Part shown: in pieces, positions 14,104-32,864 of the stretch
Layout of the letters: the number at the start of each line of letters is the position of its first letter
Numbering within the stretch: position 1 is the stretch's first letter
NCBI GenBank assembly: GCA_018434325.1
Contig: JAHDPO010000010.1
Location: 1-64,000 of the forward strand
Direction of reading: 5' to 3'
DNA: 64,000 nt
From: Clostridia bacterium
Lineage (GTDB): Bacteria > Bacillota > Peptococcia > DRI-13 > UBA5745
Notes under the pieces: model-generated
Told to the model about the DNA's origin: nothing
What the model saw: only the letters and a program-made list of their open reading frames with translations
The model's database searches: none
Translations under genes and position numbers: made by a program

Positions 14104-14146
14104 AAAAAAATGGGACAGTCGCAAATTAAGGCGACGGTCCCATTTT
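14104..14146 (+). terminator. Terminator after the aldehyde dehydrogenase gene
   Basis: AAAAATGGGAC-GTCGC pairs with GCGAC-GTCCCATTTTT with one mismatched position and an 8-nt loop. The A-rich and T-rich flanks mean it could work on both strands and could also end the convergent ABC-transporter operon. Confidence 0.85.
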
Positions 14147-14185
14147 TCTTTCAAAAATACCTTGACTTTTATTAGCAGGTTTGTA

Positions 14186-14248
14186 CAGTTGAGCCCGGCC
14201 CGCATCCAGTTGGGCCCGACCCACACTCAGTTGGGCTGGCCCACGCCC
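14186..14248. repeat. Three 21-bp tandem repeats
   Basis: Three head-to-tail 21-bp units begin CAGTTGaGCCCGG, CAGTTGGGCCCGA and CAGTTGGGCTGGC at 14186, 14207 and 14228. They fill the gap between two convergent operons. They differ by a few bases and have no evident function. Confidence 0.75.
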
Positions 14249-14281
14249 GCTTGCGCCAGCGGCGGCACCGCCCGCCGTGTT

Positions 14282-15064
14282 TTAATCCTTTAATTCCAGC
14301 AAAGTGCGAATTTGGTGCTTGATATCGGCAAAGGCGTGGGAGTCCACGTCAAGGCTTTCTTCCGGAGTAAAGGGCACCCTGACTTCCCCGACGATCTGCG
14401 CCGGCCGTTGGGAAAAGATCACCACCCGCTCCGCCAGAATCACCGCCTCCTCCACATCGTGGGTAATGAATACGGTGGTAACGGCAATATCCCTGCGCAA
14501 TTCAATCAGCAGCTTGTGCATGCTGCGGCGGGTCATGGCGTCCAGGGCGCCGAAGGGCTCGTCCAGCAGCAGCACTTCCGGCTCCAAAACCAGGATGCGG
14601 GCCAAAGCCGCCCGCTGCTGCATGCCGCCGGAAAGCTCGGCGGGATAAGCTTTTTCAAATCCCGCTAAACCCACCCGCCGGATCAAATCGGCGCAGCGCT
14701 CCTGCCGCCGGGCTTTTGGCAGGCTCACCTGCTTAAGGCCGAAGGCCACATTATCCTCCACATTCAGCCAATCAAAGAGAGTGGGGGACTGAAACAGCAC
14801 GCCGGTTTTGGGGCTGGGCTCTCCCAAAGGCTTTCCCTTGTAATAAAGCCGCCCCTGGTCAGGCTGCAAAAAACCGGCCATCAGGTGTAGCAAGGTTGTT
14901 TTGCCGCAGCCGCTGGGCCCTAATAGGGCCACGGAATCATTTTGATCAATGGCCAAAGAGATGTCCTGCAATACCGGCAGGACATTGCCATCGGCGGCGG
15001 TATAGGATTTTCGCAGATTTTCTGCCTGTATCAAATGCACTTGCTCCGAAGCTCCTTGTATCAT
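14282..15064 (-). CDS. ABC transporter ATP-binding protein (SsuB/TauB/NrtD type)
   Basis: Cytoplasmic ATPase that powers the importer encoded by the two upstream genes. The 260-residue protein has Walker A GPSGCGKTT (about 53-61), the signature LSGGMQQR, Walker B VLLLDEPFGALD and the switch histidine in FITHDVEEA. This is the nitrate/sulfonate/taurine subfamily. It is translationally coupled to the permease gene by a TGATG overlap. It is the last gene of the four-gene minus-strand operon. Confidence 0.93.
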   Translation of the reverse strand: MIQGASEQVHLIQAENLRKSYTAADGNVLPVLQDISLAIDQNDSVALLGPSGCGKTTLLHLMAGFLQPDQGRLYYKGKPLGEPSPKTGVLFQSPTLFDWLNVEDNVAFGLKQVSLPKARRQERCADLIRRVGLAGFEKAYPAELSGGMQQRAALARILVLEPEVLLLDEPFGALDAMTRRSMHKLLIELRRDIAVTTVFITHDVEEAVILAERVVIFSQRPAQIVGEVRVPFTPEESLDVDSHAFADIKHQIRTLLELKD

Positions 15065-15882
15065 CAGCTTTGCCCCGCTTTCTTGCCGCCCATGGGCGCC
15101 GCAAACCGGCAGGCCAGGAGCAGCAGACTGTCGGTGAGTTTAGCGGCAATAGCGATTACTGCAATGCAAACAATGACCATAGCGGTATTGCCCAGCATCC
15201 GGGCGTCGGTCATCACCGCTCCCAGCCCATAGTTGACGCCGGTCATTTCCCCAAGCACCAGGTAAGCCCAGGCAATGCCCAAGCCCAGGCGGAGACCGAC
15301 GGCCACCCCGGCAAATGAGGCGGGCAGGATCACCGAAGTAAACAGGGCTGTTTTTTTGGCTCCCAGCATTTGGCCGGCCAAGATAAGCTGCTGGCTGACG
15401 GAACCGGCGCTATGGACCGTATTGGTGAAAATGGGGAAAAAGGCGGCCAGGGAGATCAGAAATAAAGTATTTTTTTCGCCCACGCCAAACCAGACAATGG
15501 CTAAAGGCAGCCAGCCGATACCGGGTACAGCCCGTATCAAATGGACGAAGGGGCCGACGGTACGGTTCAGTCCCGGTCTGCGGCCACAGAGATAGCCCAG
15601 CAGCAAGCCGCTGCCGGCAGCTAAGCCAAAGCCCCGGCCCACCCGGCCCAGGCTATGCCATAAGTGTATCCACAGCGTGCCGCCGTAAGGGCCCGCTGCC
15701 CCGGGGGCAGCAAAGCGGATCAGGGACCGCAGCGTATCCAGGGGCTTAGGCAAAAGATAAGCGGGCAGCAGTCGGAAATAGGTGGCCAAAAACCAGAGCA
15801 GCAGCAGCAAGACAGGTAATAGATAAGGGAGTCCGGGGTTTTTCCCCGGCTCCCGCTGATGTTTGCGCTTATTGTTTCGCAT
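15064..15882 (-). CDS. ABC transporter permease (SsuC/TauC type)
   Basis: A membrane permease of 272 residues with six or so hydrophobic segments. The BPD_transp_1 coupling region (the EAA-like loop) lies around ILAGQMLGAKKTALFTSVILP. The N terminus is basic before TM1 at about 20-38. Its start overlaps the end of the binding-protein gene by 14 bp, and its stop overlaps the ATPase start by 1 bp, so the three subunits are coupled. Confidence 0.9.
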   Translation of the reverse strand: MRNNKRKHQREPGKNPGLPYLLPVLLLLLWFLATYFRLLPAYLLPKPLDTLRSLIRFAAPGAAGPYGGTLWIHLWHSLGRVGRGFGLAAGSGLLLGYLCGRRPGLNRTVGPFVHLIRAVPGIGWLPLAIVWFGVGEKNTLFLISLAAFFPIFTNTVHSAGSVSQQLILAGQMLGAKKTALFTSVILPASFAGVAVGLRLGLGIAWAYLVLGEMTGVNYGLGAVMTDARMLGNTAMVIVCIAVIAIAAKLTDSLLLLACRFAAPMGGKKAGQS

Positions 15883-16903
15883 TGTTCAAAAAAGAGAGAT
15901 CAAACATGGCGTCGATATCGGGAACCTCATCGATCAAACCCAAAGCCAGCATTTCCTCGGCCAGTTTGGTTGTATGGGCAATAAATTCTTCATCGATATC
16001 GTAAAACAGCTCGATATTGTTGGCGGCGGCATCTAAAACGGCAGGATCGCTGCCAAACTCGGCGGCTTTGCCCAGCCACATTTCCCGGTCGCCATTCAGG
16101 CCATGGGTGGCTGCTACGTGAGCATCCACCAAAGCCTGGACTTTTTCCGGCTGTTCTTGGGCCATTTGCTTCGTTACGATCATAGCCGCATTGATGGTGC
16201 CGACGGAATCGTCAAAGTAAGGATAGCTGAGGATCTTGCCGTAGCCCTGCAGTTGGGCAATGGTGGGGTAGGGCTCGCCGCTGCAAAAAGCGTCGATTTC
16301 GCCGCCGGCCAGAGCCGTGCCCATATCAAAGAAATCGATGCGCTTCAGGGTGACGTCCTTATCGGGATCCAGACCGTTTTGGCGCAATACGTTGAGCAGC
16401 AGGATATGGTGCATGGTGCCGGGAACATAAGCGATCCGTTTGCCTTTAAGGTCGGCGCCGCTTTCGATGCCGGAATCTGTACCGGCCACCAGGGCGGAGC
16501 ATTTGTTGCATAAACCGGCTACAATAACCACCGGCTCATCATTGGCCGCCGCCATAATGGCGCTGACGATAGTGGTGCCGCACATATCGAGACTGCCGGC
16601 CAGCAAGGCAGTTTTTTGGTCGCCGGGATTGGTGAAAGGCAGCACCTCCGCCACCAGCTTACCTTCAGAGAAGTCCTGGTAGAAATAGGGGGTAATGGTC
16701 TGGGCTGTCTTCCAGGTGCCGATGGTGACGTTTATTGGCTCAGAACTGGTTTCCGGGGCAGTTTCCGGAGCAGTAGTTTCTCCGCCCTGGGCCGGCGGAT
16801 TAGCGGCTTCTGCCGGGGGCTGAGAGCTGGAAGAGGAGCAGGCTGCCAGCGATAAGCTTAATAAGAGGCAGAGAATCATGATAATAGATAGGCTTTTTTT
16901 CAT
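15869..16903 (-). CDS. ABC transporter substrate-binding lipoprotein (SsuA/NMT1-like)
   Basis: A 344-residue lipoprotein with a signal peptide and lipobox SLAAC (Cys about 22), a Ser/Pro/Thr-rich linker, then a type II periplasmic-binding fold of the SsuA/NMT1/THI5 group (GSLDMCGTTIV, DLKGKRIAYVPGT, LAGGEIDAFCSGEPYP). Such proteins bind sulfonates, nitrate or thiamine-pyrimidine precursors; the ligand here is unknown. It lies 15 bp after the radical SAM gene in the same operon. Confidence 0.9.
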   Translation of the reverse strand: MKKSLSIIMILCLLLSLSLAACSSSSSQPPAEAANPPAQGGETTAPETAPETSSEPINVTIGTWKTAQTITPYFYQDFSEGKLVAEVLPFTNPGDQKTALLAGSLDMCGTTIVSAIMAAANDEPVVIVAGLCNKCSALVAGTDSGIESGADLKGKRIAYVPGTMHHILLLNVLRQNGLDPDKDVTLKRIDFFDMGTALAGGEIDAFCSGEPYPTIAQLQGYGKILSYPYFDDSVGTINAAMIVTKQMAQEQPEKVQALVDAHVAATHGLNGDREMWLGKAAEFGSDPAVLDAAANNIELFYDIDEEFIAHTTKLAEEMLALGLIDEVPDIDAMFDLSFLNNAKQ

Positions 16904-16918
16904 GATTTTGTCCTTTCC

Positions 16919-17920
16919 CTATATTTCCTGCTTAGTCTGGTGAACGGTATAGCCATTGCGCCGGAAAGCTTCGTTAGCCTGGCGGCAGTCAAAACCATGC
17001 CAGGCTTGATCATGCTGGCCTACGTCTCTGGGGATGGAACCGCATTCCACCACAGTTACGTTGGCGCCCCAGGCCAGAGCCAGGTCGTTGCAGGGATGGA
17101 CGCAGACATCGGGAATGGCGCGGCCGCAAACCAGGCGGCTGACAGCGATGATTTGTGCCAGCCTGCGTTCGGAAATCTGGGGAATACTGCCCAGGGGAGT
17201 GCCCGGCACCGGCACCCTGGCCATAGCGCCGGAGACGTTGGCGCCGCAGTCCAGCACCGACTGCATGATGTCGGCGATTTCTTCGTTTGTATGCTCCCGA
17301 CCCACAGGTTCCACCAAATAGACCAGATCTAAAGGAGAGGCGCCGATGGCTTTCAGGGTTGCCACCCGGTCCTCCGGCCGGAAAATAGTATCCCGGCCTT
17401 CACCCAGCCGCAAGGAGTGGTAGGCGAAGGCAGCCCCTGAGGCCGCTACCTGTCCTGCCAGGTTCTCATCCATTTCTCCCGCATTGATGCCCAGTTCGTA
17501 TTTGCCGGGGACAGCCCGGCGAATTTTTTCGATGAAGCCGCCCAGCTTGTCCAAGCTGTAGAATTGAGTAGTCCGCAAAACGATCCAACGCACGTTGCCA
17601 TTTTGGTAGTTCTGAACAATCCGGAAAATTTCCTCGTCTTCCAGCTGCTCTTTTTGGCTGATCAAGCCCCAGTCTTCGCCTAATGAACAGTACCTGCAAT
17701 TCATTGAGCAAGGGGTGGCGTCTACGCCCACAGCGCCCCATAAATAGGCATGATCACCGCAAATTTCACTGGCGGCGGCTCTGGCGGCGGCGCCTAAGTA
17801 ATCGCAGAGCTCCGATTCTTCGGGGATCGACAGCAGCGCAACTATCGTTTGATGATCCAAGGGTTTGCCGGCAAGGGCGCGGCACTTTGCATCGTCGATT
17901 ATTTTTTTCAGATCCTCCAT
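16919..17920 (-). CDS. Radical SAM enzyme, BioB/HydE/PylB-like, linked to an ABC importer
   Basis: A 333-residue protein with the radical SAM cluster motif CSMNCRYC (about 74-81), which binds a [4Fe-4S] cluster and S-adenosylmethionine. Downstream it has EPVGREHTNEE and RVPVPGTPLG, features shared with the biotin synthase/HydE/PylB group. The C-terminal third carries extra cysteines (VCGRAIPDVCVHPCND, VVECG), which may hold a second cluster or bind substrate. It does not match BioB, ThiH, HydE or PylB closely enough for a name. It is the first gene of the operon, 15 bp before the importer's binding protein, so it probably acts on the imported compound or its product. Confidence 0.8.
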   Translation of the reverse strand: MEDLKKIIDDAKCRALAGKPLDHQTIVALLSIPEESELCDYLGAAARAAASEICGDHAYLWGAVGVDATPCSMNCRYCSLGEDWGLISQKEQLEDEEIFRIVQNYQNGNVRWIVLRTTQFYSLDKLGGFIEKIRRAVPGKYELGINAGEMDENLAGQVAASGAAFAYHSLRLGEGRDTIFRPEDRVATLKAIGASPLDLVYLVEPVGREHTNEEIADIMQSVLDCGANVSGAMARVPVPGTPLGSIPQISERRLAQIIAVSRLVCGRAIPDVCVHPCNDLALAWGANVTVVECGSIPRDVGQHDQAWHGFDCRQANEAFRRNGYTVHQTKQEI

Positions 17921-18057
17921 AAATATCCCTGCTTTCCTTAGTGTGTAGCTTCCCTATAGGACTATGTCTACTATTATAGAAAGTCTCCTTGCCAAATTCT
18001 AAAAAAATATATAACCTTTTAGGTAATTTTCGGGTGTCAGTATTTTAATCCATGCAA

Positions 18058-18087
18058 AACAAAAAATACCTCAAAATGAGGTATTTG
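18058..18087 (-). terminator. Terminator after spoVT
   Basis: AAATACCTCA pairs with TGAGGTATTT across an AAA loop. Read on the minus strand it is followed by TTTTGTTTT, so it ends the spoVT transcript. Confidence 0.85.
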
Positions 18088-18120: not shown

Positions 18121-18690
18121 TCATTCGTCATAAATGGAAATATTCTTAGCCAAAGCGAGAGCAGCAAATCTTGCCAGCTTTACTTCCACCTCACCAAAGC
18201 TGCGGCCTTTTTCCCGGCTGGCCAGGCAGAGGGTGCCGGCGGTCATTCCTTCCGATAAAAGTATGGGTTCGATAATTACGGCGCTATATTGGGCCTTACG
18301 CTCATCGTCTTCGAGAATAGCGGCGGCTAAGGCTGTGCCCGGCCTGTTTTCCAGTACGCCCACCCGGCCGGACAGAACTCTGTCCACCCCGGCGCCAATG
18401 GGTTTATGGCCATATTCTTCCTGAGAAACGCCGGCCACGGCTACCGTATTGTCCCGGTCGGTAATGATCACCATGCTGTCGGTGGCCTCATGGAGAACAT
18501 TTGCTATGTCATTAAGCAAAGGGCCTACGCCTTTAACTAATGAATATTTCTCCAAAATCAGCTCACCGTTTTGATTGACGAAAAATTCTAAAGGGTCACC
18601 TATGACAATTCTGAAACTCCGCCGGATTTCCTTGGGGATAACGACTCGGCCTAAAAAGTCAATTTTACGAATTAATTGATATTTTTTCAT
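18121..18690 (-). CDS. spoVT: Stage V sporulation transcription regulator SpoVT
   Basis: A forespore DNA-binding regulator that tunes sigma-G genes. The 189-residue protein has an AbrB-type swapped-hairpin DNA-binding domain (1-50, containing GRVVIPKEIRR) and a GAF-like C-terminal domain (about 55-180). The size is close to the usual 178 or so residues. GGAGGT precedes the ATG. It lies next to a dpaA-like gene and downstream of a sigma-G-driven germination operon, which fits a late-sporulation role. It has its own terminator. Confidence 0.92.
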   Translation of the reverse strand: MKKYQLIRKIDFLGRVVIPKEIRRSFRIVIGDPLEFFVNQNGELILEKYSLVKGVGPLLNDIANVLHEATDSMVIITDRDNTVAVAGVSQEEYGHKPIGAGVDRVLSGRVGVLENRPGTALAAAILEDDERKAQYSAVIIEPILLSEGMTAGTLCLASREKGRSFGEVEVKLARFAALALAKNISIYDE

Positions 18691-18851
18691 CGATAGGTGA
18701 CCTCCATACTGCTATTCAAATTATTTTAGCCTATTATAGCATTTTATGTTTCATTTTGTCTTCTTTATTTCAGATTTTTGTATCTAAATTCGGCGGCTCA
18801 AAAAACCGGGTTATATTGAAGTTCGTGCAGATTTTAGCTGAAAAGTTTAAG

Positions 18852-19619
18852 CTAAGAGAGGCTGAGCTTTTGGTAAATATATTGGCCCAGAATCTCGCCG
18901 GCAGATTTGACAGCCAGCTTGCCGGGGATGCCGGGCAGCAGGACGGAATCGGGATTTAAGGTTTTGGCATACTCCATGGAAAAACCGTAAGGCGCCGAAG
19001 CAATTTCCACCATCATCGCGCCTTTTAGCTGATCAAGCATACCATTGGTGAATACTTCTGCCGGTACGGTATTGATGACCACATCAAACCGGTGCTTGCC
19101 GATATCCTGCAAATAAACCGGTGTTATGCCTCCGCGCCAGGCATAGCTTTCTTTTGTGCTATTGCGTACTAACGCATAAACCTGGGCGCCTAAGGCCTGC
19201 AGCCTGCCGGCTAAGTCGCTGCCCACAATGCCGTAGCCGGATACCAGGATGGAACTGCCGAAGATGGTTTTGTTGCGATGATAAAGCAAATGAGCAATAA
19301 CACCTTCAGAGGTAGGGATGGCGTTTTTGGCTTTTATGCCCTCTTCAATCATGATCGGATAATAGGGCCAGCCCCTCGTTTGACATTGCCCGGCCAGATA
19401 ATCATTAGAGACGCCGGAAAACACAATGATTTCCTTTTTTAGCCGGCTAAAAAAGCTGTCGTTATATTCGGCGGTATCTACTTTGCCGAATAAAGGAAAA
19501 ACAATAAAGTCCAAGGCTTCCGGCGCCGCCAAAGCTTCGGCAAAGGTGAAGCCTTGATCTTTTAAATATTCTTCCGCATAGTGCAAACGCTTGTCGTCTT
19601 TAATAAAATAACCGTGCAT
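18852..19619 (-). CDS. dpaA: Dipicolinate synthase subunit A-like protein
   Basis: DpaA (SpoVFA) with DpaB makes dipicolinic acid for the spore core. The protein shares with it VFSGVSNDYL (66-75), NAIPTSEGVI (99-108), the Rossmann GYGIVG (128-133), INTVPAEVF and LLPGIPGKLAVKSAGEILG near the C terminus. The start at 19619 follows GGAGGG and gives 255 residues, somewhat shorter than the usual 290-300; an in-frame start at 19700 adds 27 residues that look non-coding and overlap the promoter. No DpaB flavoprotein gene lies beside it, which is unusual since the two are normally adjacent. A sigma-A-type promoter lies upstream, back to back with that of the dehydratase-like operon. Confidence 0.85.
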   Translation of the reverse strand: MHGYFIKDDKRLHYAEEYLKDQGFTFAEALAAPEALDFIVFPLFGKVDTAEYNDSFFSRLKKEIIVFSGVSNDYLAGQCQTRGWPYYPIMIEEGIKAKNAIPTSEGVIAHLLYHRNKTIFGSSILVSGYGIVGSDLAGRLQALGAQVYALVRNSTKESYAWRGGITPVYLQDIGKHRFDVVINTVPAEVFTNGMLDQLKGAMMVEIASAPYGFSMEYAKTLNPDSVLLPGIPGKLAVKSAGEILGQYIYQKLSLS

Positions 19620-19680
19620 TGCCGCCCTCCGTTCAACGTTTTTGTTTCCCGATCTCAGCCGCAGGATTAATCCTGATTCC

Positions 19681-19710
19681 AGTATAGCTATAGTTGCCAA
19701 GTCCAGTCAA
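19681..19710 (-). promoter_or_regulatory. Sigma-A-like promoter of dpaA
   Basis: On the minus strand TTGACT (19710-19705) and TATACT (19686-19681) are 18 bp apart. Each has one mismatch to consensus. In Bacillus the equivalent operon is read by sigma-K; no sigma-K site was recognised here. Confidence 0.55.
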
Positions 19711-19847: not shown

Positions 19848-21005
19848 ATGCTGGAGATGAGAAAAGAACTGCCGGAAATTTTTGATAGCTTTGCCGAGGC
19901 AAGGCAAAAGGGTTTTTTAGCGATGAAGAAAATTAAGGAGGAGGGCAAAGGTGTGGTGGGGCAGTTTTGCACCTATACGCCTTTAGAGATTTTTATGGCT
20001 GCCGGCCTGGTCAACGTGGGCTTGTGCTCGACCAGCGACGAAACCATCGCTGAGGCGGAAAAAGTTCTGCCGGGCAATCTCTGTCCTCTGATCAAATCAA
20101 GTTATGGCTTTGCTATTACCGATAAATGCCCCTACATGTATTTCTCGGATTTGGTCGTAGGCGAGACAACCTGCGACGGCAAAATAAAAATGTATGAGCT
20201 GCTGGCTCAGATTAAAAATCTCCACATCCTGGAGCTGCCGCGCAAGCAGAATACTGAGGAGGCCTTTGCCTTGTGGCGGGCGGAGATTATCCGGCTTAAG
20301 GAGCGGGTGGAAAAGGATTTTGGGGTAACGATTACCGACGACATGCTTAAAGAAGCCATTCGCAAACGGAATGTGGAGCGCCGCCTGCTGAAGGAGATTT
20401 ATGAGCTTAGCGCCATGACGCCTCCGCCTGTCAGCGGCCTGAAGCAGCTGCAAATTCTCTTTGGCTCTCAGTTCAAATTTGACTGGGATGAGAAAGTGGC
20501 GGAGCTGCAGCAAGCTATCGACAGCATCAAGGCCGCTTATGCCGCCGGTGAAAGGCCGATTTCCGATAAGGCTCCCCGGATTCTGATTACCGGCTGCCCT
20601 ATGGGCGGCGTGACCGAAAAGGTAGTGAAGGTCATTGAGGAGGCCGGCGCGGTGGTGGTAGTTTATGAAAACTGCACCGGCGCCAAGCAAATGGATCGTC
20701 AATGTCAGGAAGAAGGCGACCCGATTAGCAATATTGCCCGGCATTATTTGCAGATCGGCTGTGCCGTAATGACGCCGGATACCAACCGGCTGGAGCTTTT
20801 GGACCGGCTTTGCGAGCAGTTCAAAGTGGACGGCGTGGTGGAGATGACGCTGCAATCCTGCCATCCCTATTCCATAGAAGCTTATACCATCAAAACCCAT
20901 CTGCAAAAAAAGGGTATACCGTATCTGCATCTGGAGACGGATTACAGCACCGCTGACATCGGCCAGCTGGCTACCCGGGCCGGCGCCTTTTTGGAGATGC
21001 TGTAA
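19848..21005 (+). CDS. 2-hydroxyacyl-CoA dehydratase-type iron-sulfur protein (double-cubane/YjiM-like)
   Basis: A 385-residue member of the HgdB/FldB family. Family features are GQFCTYTPLEIFMAAG (about 44-59), the Cys-containing LPGNLCPLIKSSYG and TDKCPYMYFSD, and a C-terminal ENCTGAK and LQSCHPYS. True dehydratases have two different subunits of this family; here there is one, followed at once by its activator. That arrangement is the one seen for the double-cubane-cluster proteins (YjiM/YjiL). The substrate is unknown. The operon has a strong promoter with a Rex-like inverted repeat, which would fit redox control. Confidence 0.85.
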   Translation: MLEMRKELPEIFDSFAEARQKGFLAMKKIKEEGKGVVGQFCTYTPLEIFMAAGLVNVGLCSTSDETIAEAEKVLPGNLCPLIKSSYGFAITDKCPYMYFSDLVVGETTCDGKIKMYELLAQIKNLHILELPRKQNTEEAFALWRAEIIRLKERVEKDFGVTITDDMLKEAIRKRNVERRLLKEIYELSAMTPPPVSGLKQLQILFGSQFKFDWDEKVAELQQAIDSIKAAYAAGERPISDKAPRILITGCPMGGVTEKVVKVIEEAGAVVVVYENCTGAKQMDRQCQEEGDPISNIARHYLQIGCAVMTPDTNRLELLDRLCEQFKVDGVVEMTLQSCHPYSIEAYTIKTHLQKKGIPYLHLETDYSTADIGQLATRAGAFLEML

Positions 21006-21847
21006 TGGCTGGACCGGCGAACCTGGCTGGCCAGGCTATTACGGCCGGCATCGATTGCGGTTCCGCCGCCTGCAAGGGCGTTCTGATGCGGGGCGGAGCC
21101 ATCATTGCCAAGGCGGTGAGGCCCACGGGCTGGAACCCCCGGGAGACGGCGGAGGGGCTGCTGCGGGAGCTGCTGCTGCAAGGCGGCCTGGCGGGGGAAG
21201 CGGCGGCAAGCTCAGGGGAGCCGCTGCCGTTGCCGTCGCCGGATAAGGAAGCTTTAGAACAGGCGGGCATAACGGTAGTGGCCACAGGCTATGGCCGGGT
21301 GGCTATCCCCTTTGCCGCCCGTACGGTTACGGAAATCACCTGCCATAGCCGGGGCGCCGAATATCTGCTGCCCGGCGTCGGCACCGTCATCGATATCGGC
21401 GGTCAGGACTCCAAAGCCATCAGCCTCCATAACGGCAAGGTCCTGGCTTTTCAGATGAATGACAAATGTGCCGCCGGCACCGGCCGCTTCCTGGAAATGT
21501 CGGCGGCCCGCATGGGCGTTACTTTGGCGGAATTGGACGGCCTGCTGCAAAGCGGTGAAAGCTGCCGCCTCAGCAGCATGTGCGCTGTTTTCGCTGATTC
21601 GGAGATCGTTTCTCTATTGGCGGCGGGTAAAAGCCGCCAGGAGGTAGCCGGCGGCGTTATCGATGCCGTGGCGGGCAGAGCCGCCGCCTTAGCTGCCAGG
21701 GTAGAGGTTCGGCCGCCGCTTTTGCTTACCGGCGGTCTGGGGGAGCTGGAGGGGCTGCGGAAGGCATTGGCGGCCCAGCTGTCATGCCGGGTGGAGACTT
21801 CGCCGTTATCCCGTTTTGCCGGGGCTATCGGGGCTGCTTTAAGCTAA
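21005..21847 (+). CDS. Activator ATPase of the dehydratase-type protein (HgdC/YjiL family)
   Basis: An ASKHA-fold ATPase that uses ATP to push a low-potential electron into its partner. The 280-residue protein has the phosphate loops GIDCGSAACKG (15-25) and IDIGGQDSKAI, and the two cysteines that in the homodimer hold one bridging [4Fe-4S] cluster: C155 in NDKCAAGTGRF and C193 in MCAVFADSE, 38 residues apart as in HgdC. The ATG overlaps the stop of the preceding gene (TAATG). An Ala/Gly/Glu-rich stretch around 55-80 is longer than usual. Confidence 0.9.
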   Translation: MAGPANLAGQAITAGIDCGSAACKGVLMRGGAIIAKAVRPTGWNPRETAEGLLRELLLQGGLAGEAAASSGEPLPLPSPDKEALEQAGITVVATGYGRVAIPFAARTVTEITCHSRGAEYLLPGVGTVIDIGGQDSKAISLHNGKVLAFQMNDKCAAGTGRFLEMSAARMGVTLAELDGLLQSGESCRLSSMCAVFADSEIVSLLAAGKSRQEVAGGVIDAVAGRAAALAARVEVRPPLLLTGGLGELEGLRKALAAQLSCRVETSPLSRFAGAIGAALS

Positions 21848-30121: not shown

Positions 30122-30302
30122 GCGGCGGGTAAGCGAGGAGGCGGCGATCCAAAGCCAAAGAGGAGCTGGTTAAAGAACCGGCCCGATCTGCGGCCAGGAC
30201 GGCGAAAGACGATTGCGGCACAAACGTCACAATAGAATCAAAACGCACTGACCAAAGGGTAATTCCCGATGAAAAGGCGGCAAAGAGAAAGCTGTTCATT
30301 TT

Positions 30303-30328
30303 GCCACGCCTTTTGGCGTGGTTTTTTT
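30303..30328 (+). terminator. Terminator before the second ABC operon
   Basis: GCCACGCC pairs with GGCGTGG across TTTT and is followed by seven T. It lies only about 28 bp before the start of the binding-protein gene, so it may also act as an attenuator of transcripts coming from the CBS gene. The 180 bp between the CBS gene and this hairpin show no other feature. Confidence 0.85.
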
Positions 30329-30355
30329 AATGAGAAAGACGAGGAGGAGAAAGAT

Positions 30356-31402
30356 ATGAAAAAAGTATTGTCGGTATTGTTGATGGTGATGTTAACGGCA
30401 GGTCTGCTGGCCGGCTGCGGTTCGGGCGGAGGGGCTGCAAATCCTGCCGCCACCACGCCTCAAGGGGCCTCTGAGCCTGCTGAGGCTACGGAGCCGGCAG
30501 CGCCGGAGGTTCAGCCCGCCACTATCCGTTTGGGCGGCTTAAAAGGGCCTACAACCATGGGTATGGTAAAGCTTTTAAAAGACGCTGAAGCAGGCGGCAC
30601 TTTCAATCAGTATGAATTCACTATTGCCGGCGCCGCCGACGAATTGACGCCCCAGCTGATTCAGGGCCAGCTGGATATTGCTGCCGTACCGGCCAATCTG
30701 GCGGCGGTACTCCATAATAATACCAAGGGCGCCGTAAAGCTGGCAGCCGTTAATACTCTTGGCGTTGTGTATATCGTGGAAACCGGCGAGGCCATCGAGA
30801 CGATCCAGGATTTAAAAGGCAAGACGATTTACGCCACCGGCAAAGGCTCCACGCCGGAGTACGCTTTACGCCATATTTTGCAGGAAAATGGCATCGATCC
30901 CGATAAAGATGTGACCATGGAATGGAAATCGGAGCCCACAGAGGTGCTGGCCCTTCTGGGTCAAGGCGGCGGCGTGGCCATGATGCCCCAGCCTTACGTA
31001 ACGGTGGCCCAAAACACCTTGCCCAATCTGCGGATCGCTTTAGACCTGACGAAAGAATGGGACGCTTTAGACAGCGGCAGCATGCTGATCACCGGCGTTT
31101 TGGTGGTGCGCACCGCCTTTGCTGAGGAGTATCCGGAGCAATTGGCTAAGTTTTTGGAAGAGTACAAAGCTTCCACGGAATATGTCAATGCTAATGTCCA
31201 GGAGGCTGCCGTTTTAGTGGAAGAGTTCGATATCGTTAAAGCAGCCATTGCCGCCAAGGCAATTCCATATTGCAATATTACCTATCTGGACGGGGAAACG
31301 ATGAAACAGGCGATGGCCGGTTATCTGCAGGTGCTCTTTGATCAAAATCCCAAATCTGTAGGCGGCAGCCTGCCGGGAGATGATTTCTATTACCAGAAAT
31401 AA
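30356..31402 (+). CDS. ABC transporter substrate-binding lipoprotein (NMT1-like)
   Basis: A 348-residue lipoprotein with signal peptide and lipobox LLAGC (Cys about 21), an Ala/Pro/Glu linker to about 60, then a type II binding fold (RLGGLKGPTTMGMVKLL, IQGQLDIAAVPANLA, DLKGKTIYATGKG). It belongs to the NMT1/SsuA-type group. GAGGAGGAG precedes the ATG at 30356; the longer frame starting at 30269 includes the terminator hairpin and is rejected. Its 3' end overlaps the fused permease-ATPase gene by 23 bp. Confidence 0.9.
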   Translation: MKKVLSVLLMVMLTAGLLAGCGSGGGAANPAATTPQGASEPAEATEPAAPEVQPATIRLGGLKGPTTMGMVKLLKDAEAGGTFNQYEFTIAGAADELTPQLIQGQLDIAAVPANLAAVLHNNTKGAVKLAAVNTLGVVYIVETGEAIETIQDLKGKTIYATGKGSTPEYALRHILQENGIDPDKDVTMEWKSEPTEVLALLGQGGGVAMMPQPYVTVAQNTLPNLRIALDLTKEWDALDSGSMLITGVLVVRTAFAEEYPEQLAKFLEEYKASTEYVNANVQEAAVLVEEFDIVKAAIAAKAIPYCNITYLDGETMKQAMAGYLQVLFDQNPKSVGGSLPGDDFYYQK

Positions 31403-32864
31403 GGAAAAGCTTAAGAATCAACGCAGAACACAGCTGCTTTTCTCCATATTGCTGGCACTGATTCTCTGGCAGTTGGGGGCCATGCTTTTTGAACATTTTG
31501 TGGTTTTCGGCGGTTTTCTGGTAGCCACGCCGGCAGCGGTCCTGCGCAGGCTTTTGACCTTATGGAGCCAGCTGAGCTTTTGGCAAACAGTCTGGTTCTC
31601 TTTTGGCCGCATTGTCACCGGTTTTTTGGCGGCATTAACCTTAGGTTCCCTGTTGGCGGCTGCTGCCGGCCGCTTCCCTCTGCTGGAGACTCTGTTTTGG
31701 CCCTACATTACGGTAATTAAGGCTACGCCGGTGGCCTCCTTCATCATTCTCTGCCTGATCTGGTGGGGCTCCCGGAATTTGTCCATCATCATTTCATTTC
31801 TGATGGTGCTGCCCGTCATCTATACCAATATGCTGCAAGGAATCCGCAGTACCGACCGTCATTTGCTGGAAATGGCGGCGGTGTTTCGGGCCAGCTGGAG
31901 CCGGCGGCTGGTTTATATCTATCTGCCTCAGTTGAAGCCCTATTTGCTTTCGGCCTGCAGCATATCCTTGGGCATAACCTGGAAATCGGGCATTGCCGCC
32001 GAAGTCATCGGTATTCCCGATGGCTCTATCGGCGAGATGCTGTATCAGGCTAAAATCTACCTGAATGCCCAGGAGCTTTTTGCCTGGACGGCAGTGATTA
32101 TTTTAGTCAGCGCAGCCTTTGAGAAGCTGTTTATCGCTCTGATCAAAAAGGCTTACAGATGCCTGGAGGGTCTGGGCAGGTATGAGGGAGCAAGGAAGGC
32201 GGGAGCCGGGCCGGAGCAAGCGCCGTCTGACGCTGAGGCGCCGGCGGCAGGGGCTGCGACTGCGGCGGTAGTTCGGCCTTTGCCGGATATCGAAGTGAGT
32301 GGTCTTGCCAAAGCGTACGGCGATAAAAAAGTGTTGGAGGATTATAGCGCCGTTTTTTCCGGCGGCAGCTGCACCTGCATCATGGGTGATTCCGGTCTTG
32401 GCAAGACCACGCTGCTGCATATTTTGATGGGCCTGACGCCGCCGGATAGCGGCAGCATCAAGGGCTTGGCAGGCTTAAAGATCAGCGCCGTATTTCAGGA
32501 AGACCGGCTTTGCGAAAGCTTTAATGCCGTGGCTAATATCGGCTTTGCCTGCGGCAAAAAAACAGAACCGACCGTCATCGCCGCCCATTTGACGGCCTTG
32601 GGCCTGGGGGACAGCCTGAATCAGCCGGTACGGGAGCTTTCCGGCGGTATGCGGCGGCGGGTGGCTATTTGCCGGGCGGTGCTGGCTGCCGGTCAAGCGC
32701 TGTTTTTGGATGAACCCTTCAAGGGCTTGGATGAGCAAAATAAAGAGCTGACCGCCAACTACATACGGCGGTACAGCCGGGGCATTACTACGCTGATGGT
32801 GACTCACAGTCAGGAGGAGGTAACCCTCATGGGCGGTGAACTGCTGATCATGAAAAAGGGTTAA
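31380..32864 (+). CDS. ABC transporter with permease and ATPase fused in one polypeptide
   Basis: A 494-residue protein. Residues 1-255 are an SsuC-type permease with about six hydrophobic segments and the coupling loop LLEMAAVFRASWSRRLVYIYLP. An Ala/Pro/Glu-rich linker (about 265-300) joins it to an SsuB-type ATPase with Walker A GDSGLGKTT (336-344), signature LSGGMRRR (421-428), Walker B LFLDEP and MVTHSQEE. In most bacteria, and in the other importer of this window, these are separate genes. The ATPase half is short, about 190 residues. The sequence shows no stop or frameshift at the joint, so the fusion looks genuine. Confidence 0.9.
   Translation: MISITRNKEKLKNQRRTQLLFSILLALILWQLGAMLFEHFVVFGGFLVATPAAVLRRLLTLWSQLSFWQTVWFSFGRIVTGFLAALTLGSLLAAAAGRFPLLETLFWPYITVIKATPVASFIILCLIWWGSRNLSIIISFLMVLPVIYTNMLQGIRSTDRHLLEMAAVFRASWSRRLVYIYLPQLKPYLLSACSISLGITWKSGIAAEVIGIPDGSIGEMLYQAKIYLNAQELFAWTAVIILVSAAFEKLFIALIKKAYRCLEGLGRYEGARKAGAGPEQAPSDAEAPAAGAATAAVVRPLPDIEVSGLAKAYGDKKVLEDYSAVFSGGSCTCIMGDSGLGKTTLLHILMGLTPPDSGSIKGLAGLKISAVFQEDRLCESFNAVANIGFACGKKTEPTVIAAHLTALGLGDSLNQPVRELSGGMRRRVAICRAVLAAGQALFLDEPFKGLDEQNKELTANYIRRYSRGITTLMVTHSQEEVTLMGGELLIMKKG

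Follow-up and report, generated by a model that had tools for sequence, protein, structure and literature searches.

A four-gene operon on the minus strand of the analysed stretch of DNA (64,000 nucleotides from a Clostridia bacterium, referred to below as the window) combines the gene of a radical SAM enzyme, belonging to a family unlike any named one, with those of an NMT1-type ABC importer. The view that this operon is an import-and-process cassette is well supported. As to its cargo, we tentatively favor import and processing of a soft-element compound (arsenic, mercury, selenium, metal) or a thiol-reactive one, because of the enzyme-importer linkage within one clade of the family (clade I), the residues of the importer pocket, PadR regulators with a CxC motif, neighbors with arsenic-related names and the absence of conserved auxiliary-cluster cysteines in the enzyme. 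The relevant features of the window are the following:

16919..17920, minus strand: radical SAM enzyme (ATG start, 333 aa), family without a name, provisionally sister to BioB
17687..17710, minus strand: codons of the CX3CX2C motif (C71, C75, C78), coordinates derived from the ORF
15869..16903, minus strand: NMT1/SsuA-type substrate-binding lipoprotein (SBP; NMT1 PF09084, 79.8 bits, cut-off 20.5)
16499..16501, minus strand: codon of SBP Cys135, right after the hinge (orthologue alignment)
16409..16414, minus strand: codons of SBP Met164-His165; Met164 stands where SsuA has its sulphonate ligand Ser141
15064..15882, minus strand: ABC permease (PF00528, 59.3 bits)
14282..15064, minus strand: ABC ATPase (PF00005, 113.7 bits)
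14110..14146, no strand assigned: inverted repeat flanked on either side by a T run, likely a bidirectional terminator shared with the aldehyde dehydrogenase gene (by eye)
18064..18086, minus strand: terminator-like hairpin between the operon and the upstream SpoVT-like gene (terminator scan)

The ORF coordinates and Pfam matches confirm the architecture given in the first-pass annotation, i.e. a four-gene minus-strand operon led by the enzyme, with 15-bp and overlapping junctions. The gene order is radical SAM enzyme, SBP, permease and ATPase; a gap of 15 bp separates the first two genes, the SBP and permease genes overlap by 14 bp, and those of the permease and ATPase by 1 bp. Three components (the PF09084 match of the SBP, the permease and the ATPase), together with a lipobox-like LAAC recognized by eye at the SBP N-terminus, identify the importer as an NMT1-type ABC system. 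The upstream gene (18121-18690; SpoVT-like, 156 bits vs a cut-off of 236 in NCBIfam) stops ahead of the hairpin at 18086-18064, and therefore the transcription unit begins at the enzyme; the terminator scan of the window returned 7 hairpin sites vs 6.1 expected in shuffles, so a single site is weak on its own. The repeat at 14110..14146, adjacent to the convergent aldehyde dehydrogenase gene downstream of the operon, was seen by eye and is absent from the scan output. Near position 17970 there is a TATAAT-like box, but a -35 element to go with it is lacking, and we do not claim a promoter there. In the spacer past the ATPase gene (14180-14255) a short GC-rich unit with CAGTTGGGC-like copies is repeated (by eye). 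On the other flank, the SpoVT-like gene and a DpaA-like gene (18121-19700, minus strand; 156 of 236 and 132 of 320 bits, both far under the cut-offs) are likely diverged paralogues of sporulation genes, and a double-cubane-cluster reductase (NF040772, 523 bits vs 350) with its activase (19848-21847, plus strand) lies beside the operon, an arrangement that is syntenic in the genus mate G004.

The enzyme carries CX3CX2C at residues 71-78, and C71, C75 and C78 are the sole invariant cysteines of the family, being Cys in 101/101 members of a set that was selected for the motif and excluded radical SAM pieces shorter than 250 aa or lacking it. Besides these, N146, Y167, E174, R185, P205, G207, H210 and R235 are conserved at 1.00 in the 101 members, H168, R171, E204 and E209 at 0.99, E292, G294, P297 and R298 at 0.98, and H275 at 0.97. 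The abundance of charged residues among the invariant ones speaks for a polar substrate. The C-terminal cysteines, which the first-pass annotation had likened to those of BioB/HydE/PylB, turned out to be mostly variable: C273 is Cys in 59/101 members, and positions 265, 277, 293 and 312 of the window enzyme are not Cys positions across this set. Pfam at a threshold of 0.001 gave no match for the window enzyme, whose E value against Radical_SAM (PF04055) is 0.0011 (19.7 bits, below the cut-off of 29.5), and 35 of the 36 family members match PF04055 at 0.01. The motif, the PF04055 matches within the family and the fold of the model place the enzyme in the radical SAM superfamily; among the Pfam and NCBIfam matches the family has no model of its own.

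It had been noted earlier that the enzyme matches none of BioB, HydE and PylB, and this holds, both in the NCBIfam scores, which lie under the cut-offs (36.4 bits vs 348.2 for PylB TIGR03910; 32.7 vs 225 for BioB TIGR00433), and in the separate position of the family in the tree. HydE TIGR03956 did not match the window enzyme at 0.01, and 15/36 family members match it weakly. The phylogenetic comparison with BioB, HydE, PylB and ThiH suggested in the annotation comprised 65 sequences (43 family members, 3 BioB, 6 HydE, 7 PylB, 4 ThiH and 2 HydG; PylB L209 was dropped, its chosen frame being without the motif). The family forms its own split (UFBoot 100, branch 1.04 long), nearest to BioB (100) and then to PylB (99), while HydE, PylB and ThiH/HydG fall in splits apart from it (HydE and PylB at 100%). 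The family is provisionally regarded as the sister of BioB, the tree having held just 3 BioB sequences. The AlphaFold2 model of the enzyme (pLDDT 95.9, 36 sequences) is likewise nearest to BioB 8vdw (Z 35.0, 310 aligned, 2.2 A), followed by HydE (Z 32.4, 314 aligned, 2.6 A), PylB (Z 31.2, 307 aligned, 2.7 A) and ThiH (Z 29.5, 309 aligned, 2.6 A).

BioB (including 8vdw, 8vcw and 1r30) shares CX3CX2C with the family, but N146, E174, E204, E209, H210, R235, E292 and R298 are family-specific. In an alignment with three BioB sequences, the auxiliary-cluster Cys columns are occupied by W61, G144 and Y201 in the window enzyme, and mostly by W/H/F, V/I and Y/T/S in the family; residue 202 is Cys in 28/43 family sequences and Leu in the window enzyme. 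HydE and PylB are radical SAM enzymes without an essential auxiliary cluster, and HydE acts on an iron complex; they have a fold in common with the family, whereas most of the family-invariant residues differ. The window genome encodes its own HydE; no BioB was found in it. The comparison with LipS1/LipS2 was made through the published auxiliary-cluster ligands (C230/C276/C277; C85/C276/C279, in the part of PMC9585515 available to us) rather than by sequence alignment, and the family has just three invariant cysteines. BioB-like and PylB-like identities were set aside, and a LipS-like one provisionally so, since the auxiliary cysteines are missing or the scores low. Judging from the alignment, sulphur insertion of the BioB/LipS kind would be unlikely for an enzyme with no conserved extra cysteines. 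ArsS (TIGR04167), a radical SAM enzyme that shares a gene cluster with family members in genome G379, is absent from the matches listed (25 of 28 families) for the window enzyme and 35 relatives.

A 9-row profile detected the family with E below 1e-80 in 20/398 genomes of the phylum, followed by a gap to 1e-27 that marks a clear family edge. A single-sequence query of genome contigs retrieved no relatives, whereas a query with the alignment behind that profile succeeded, yielding at least 264, of which the best 80 of 264 were retained. According to record titles they occur in Clostridia, Bacteroidota, Gordonibacter, Desulfobacterota, Acidobacteria and others, and mostly in anaerobes. Family gene counts are based on scripted ORF calling, not curated annotation, and on short MAG contigs; each cluster label denotes a BLAST group of which a single representative was annotated, and the labels FecC, LPGsyn, DUF169, DUF1638 and PhnP were assigned by eye. 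A limited literature search found no paper on the enzyme family.

The window enzyme belongs to clade I (UFBoot 100 for 16 clade tips), in which NMT1-type ABC genes adjoin the enzyme gene in 13/20 loci. Ten of these contain an SBP orthologous to that of the window (the window itself, L031, L032, L033, L075, L093, L094, L095, L097 and L100, the last being a fragment outside the tree that was assigned to clade I by 56% identity), and three contain other or masked SBPs (L072, L092, L098). Of the remaining loci, four (L087, L088, L091, L099) have no transporter and three (L077, L085, L096) run into contig ends. Clade-I loci with the importer span several phyla (taxa as in record titles). The enzyme, SBP and permease are 83-89% identical in the genus mate and 52-59% identical in G086 and G126, the former having no recognisable ATPase. 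Conserved linkage to the transporter in other genomes, as expected from the first-pass annotation, thus stands for clade I, but other clades show no excess. ABC ATPase genes account for 10/127 genes within 4 kb of clade-I enzymes vs 1/71 at 5-10 kb (L072 left out of the count), and 12/531 vs 11/353 at the same distances in the rest of the family. Therefore, the importer link is a feature of clade I and not of the whole family. L034, L037 and L102 contain Fec-, Pot- and Liv-type systems, but an importer theme running through the entire family was rejected, because the density control favors clade I only.

The absence of importer excess in other clades and the four clade-I loci without an importer would fit an enzyme that uses an endogenous metabolite, with the importer just a co-regulated neighbor. 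We consider this very improbable, since orthologous SBP, permease and ATPase genes are kept beside enzymes only about 42-53% identical, and since in L095 the gene order is rearranged and the enzyme-importer link retained. The conserved linkage points instead, in agreement with the earlier proposal, to an imported small molecule.

Outside clade I, the orthologous SBP is truncated in L079 and L105, both loci of the Desulfofundulus type: the N-terminus is missing from both genes (L079:10933-11436; L105:11544-12293), and that of L079 also contains an internal TAG. The enzyme and PadR frames of both loci are open despite the broken SBP gene. Two different enzyme paralogues lie side by side in L091:598-3036 and L096:2577-5031, an arrangement that suggests that one pathway includes two radical steps; between the pair of L091 a C_GCAxxG_C_C protein (100.9 bits) is encoded.

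The best NCBIfam matches of the permease (SaoP, 131 bits, cut-off 295; TauC, 126, cut-off 342) and of the ATPase (a taurine-type ATPase, 226, cut-off 357) are under the respective cut-offs, as is the match of the SBP, a relative of SsuA/TauA, to SsuA_fam TIGR01728 (141.5, cut-off 163.5). The SBP model (pLDDT 86.2) is nearest to 3un6 (Z 32.2, 279 aligned, 2.4 A), with SsuA 3ksx close behind (Z 30.4, 278 aligned, 2.5 A). In SsuA of X. citri the sulphonate is held by Gly68, Gly86, Gln36 and Ser141, and the hinge comprises Pro107-Thr109 (available part of PMC3839906). In a sequence alignment at about 22% identity, the window SBP has G94, T111, W64 and M164 at the positions of these four ligands, and C132 at that of hinge Thr109; both sulphonate side-chain ligands of SsuA are thus changed (Gln36 to Trp64, Ser141 to Met164). 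C135 (three residues past the hinge), M164 and H165 are invariant in 10/10 intact SBP orthologues, a set from which the L079 and L105 proteins were left out, while C132 and C108 are each Cys in 7 of them and C207 in 6. Among other NMT1 SBPs from six genomes, a Cys at the C135 position occurs in 2/22 (28 matches minus 5 orthologues minus the gapped L183). One of the two is encoded in the cluster of ArsS and radical SAM paralogues of G379, the other beside nitrogenase-like genes (L224:3248-9256, G379:C3), where three such genes, identified by eye, are followed by those of the SBP and a permease. From the sequence, the residues that line the pocket suggest a ligand that is soft and thiophilic, although the cysteines of the SBP could serve other roles.

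Importers with the same three-part composition include SsuABC and TauABC, from which the window system differs in the invariant Cys135 and the replaced SsuA ligands. The SAO (Sec-assisted organometallic; named in the available part of PMC13188914) importer SaoX/SaoP/SaoA is also NMT1-type with pocket-region cysteines, but the window SBP reaches 51 bits vs 300 for SaoX (NF040735) and the SaoX cysteines sit in other loops, so SAO membership was rejected.

The resemblance to SsuA raises the question of organosulphur acquisition, in which the imported compound would be a sulphonate or a thiol-sulphonate and the enzyme would help anaerobic C-S cleavage. The SsuA_fam score, the structural nearness to SsuA, TauA and nitrate/bicarbonate binders, and the precedent of Rhodobacter capsulatus, whose SsuCAB imports isethionate for a pathway containing a radical SAM enzyme (PMC11423573, as far as available to us), speak for this explanation. 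We regard it as unlikely, since the SsuA_fam cut-off is missed, SsuA Gln36 and Ser141 are replaced, and nitrogenase-like genes were not seen among the window ORFs at 9-26 kb. Furthermore, the isethionate enzyme IsrB, promising at first, is placed by the available part of that source closest to BciD, which represents another type of radical SAM enzyme, and was set aside.

Quite unlikely, in our estimation, is uptake of a metal or metallophore, with the SBP binding a Zn, Cu, Ni or Co complex and the enzyme making or modifying the ligand or a metal cofactor. The structure that comes closest to the SBP, 3un6, is that of an SBP from S. aureus with bound Zn, the Met/His/Cys donors would suit a metal, and HydE, a structural neighbor of the enzyme (Z 32.4), acts on an iron complex; however, 3un6 is only 17% identical and SsuA lies within 2 Z units of it. 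CobW GTPases, encoded in 21/98 family loci (a count omitting L073 and the duplicates of whole-genome loci L084, L086, L089, L090, L143 and L160), could also be cited here, but they occur mainly in another clade than clade I.

The first-pass annotation had also suggested, as a possibility, a cofactor precursor as the salvaged substrate; HMP, dethiobiotin or a lipoate- or methylornithine-like compound would be candidates. Of the named models, those of BioB and PylB come closest, and the SBP resembles in fold, among others, THI5, PqqT and a protein that binds FAMP (3ix1); the lack of a detected BioB in the window genome could be read in the same direction. Set against this are scores far under the cut-offs, family-specific residues missing from BioB and PylB, a pocket with soft donors and the lack of a riboswitch at the operon, which make the suggestion improbable. 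Rfam detected no riboswitch in the window and none at the operons of 9 clade-I or near loci. Its matches away from operons were a T-box in L097, c-di-GMP-I in L092, and a cobalamin riboswitch in L032 (7365-7553, minus strand), 2.4 kb upstream and on the other strand; seven other-clade loci gave two tRNAs and nothing else.

In 11 loci the enzyme gene is preceded by that of a PadR regulator, at a distance of at most 45 bp in 8 of them, and a CxCxG motif is present in 11/11 of these regulators. CxC pairs bind As(III) in ArsR. In the window genome the CxC PadR is unlinked to the operon (L223:6313-6717, G000:C44, about 1.7 kb past hydF, by eye) and is 57% identical to a PadR preceding the enzyme elsewhere.

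Genes with arsenic-related names are also found near relatives of the enzyme. Clade III neighbors include glycosyltransferases of TIGR04282/TIGR04283, for which 'arsenosugar biosynthesis' is the database name, and HdrD-like Fe-S proteins. TIGR04282 is present in 9/20 family-positive and 26/378 family-negative genomes, and in 5/9 genomes holding both it lies within 5 kb of the enzyme, in all cases in another clade than clade I. In G379 (L072 and L073, G379:C2), four enzyme paralogues within 17 kb are accompanied by ArsS (443 bits, cut-off 300), an ArsM-ArsS fusion, an arsenosugar ArsM (525 bits, cut-off 400), an aquaporin and two NMT1-type importers. ArsS occurs in 11/398 genomes, and among the family-positive ones in G379 only. 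The arsenic link is therefore real for some family members and conjectural for the window. The window genome yielded neither TIGR04282 nor ArsS.

Taken with the pocket, these observations lead back to the soft-element or thiol-reactive compound that we tentatively prefer. The SBP would capture a small compound from outside the cell by means of the soft donors that line its NMT1-fold pocket (Cys135, Met164 and His165, plus Cys132 and Cys108 in most orthologues), and the permease and ATPase would carry it into the cell. The enzyme would cleave SAM at its CX3CX2C cluster, and the resulting 5'-deoxyadenosyl radical would act on the compound without a cysteine-ligated auxiliary cluster, either by H-abstraction followed by rearrangement or cleavage, or by adenosyl addition to the soft atom. 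The imported compound is presumably the substrate of the enzyme, containing arsenic, selenium, mercury or another thiophilic metal or being otherwise thiol-reactive, and the cassette may serve detoxification or salvage. What weighs against a soft element is that clade I adjoins arsenic genes in G379 only, that four clade-I loci have no transporter, and that the second control SBP with C135 adjoins nitrogenase-like rather than arsenic genes.

A narrower proposal, which we consider rather unlikely, is that anaerobes use such cassettes for uptake and radical processing of organometal(loid)s, most likely organoarsenicals. The enzyme would then make or break a carbon-to-metalloid bond, the Cys, Met and His residues of the importer would bind the compound, and the CxC PadR would sense the same element. 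If this is true, the wider family would add a new branch to the radical chemistry of metalloids in anaerobes, and an arsenical or organometal ligand would reveal by which route such compounds are taken up, and by which radical reaction they are processed, in anoxic habitats, those of gut-associated lineages among them. The paired importer turns the question of an orphan enzyme into one of binding, since the ligand of the SBP would name the substrate class.

Enzymes of clade II are accompanied by CobW, by methyltransferases of the MtaA/CmuA type fused to a thioredoxin-like domain, by corrinoid activators and by DUF2284-like proteins (these last labelled by eye). A methyltransferase of this type, MtaA/CmuA-like with the thioredoxin-like domain at its C-terminus, is encoded at L150:3830-5197. 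The window itself contains another NMT1/phosphonate-type SBP gene (30269-32864, plus strand), followed by that of one protein in which the permease and ATPase domains are fused.
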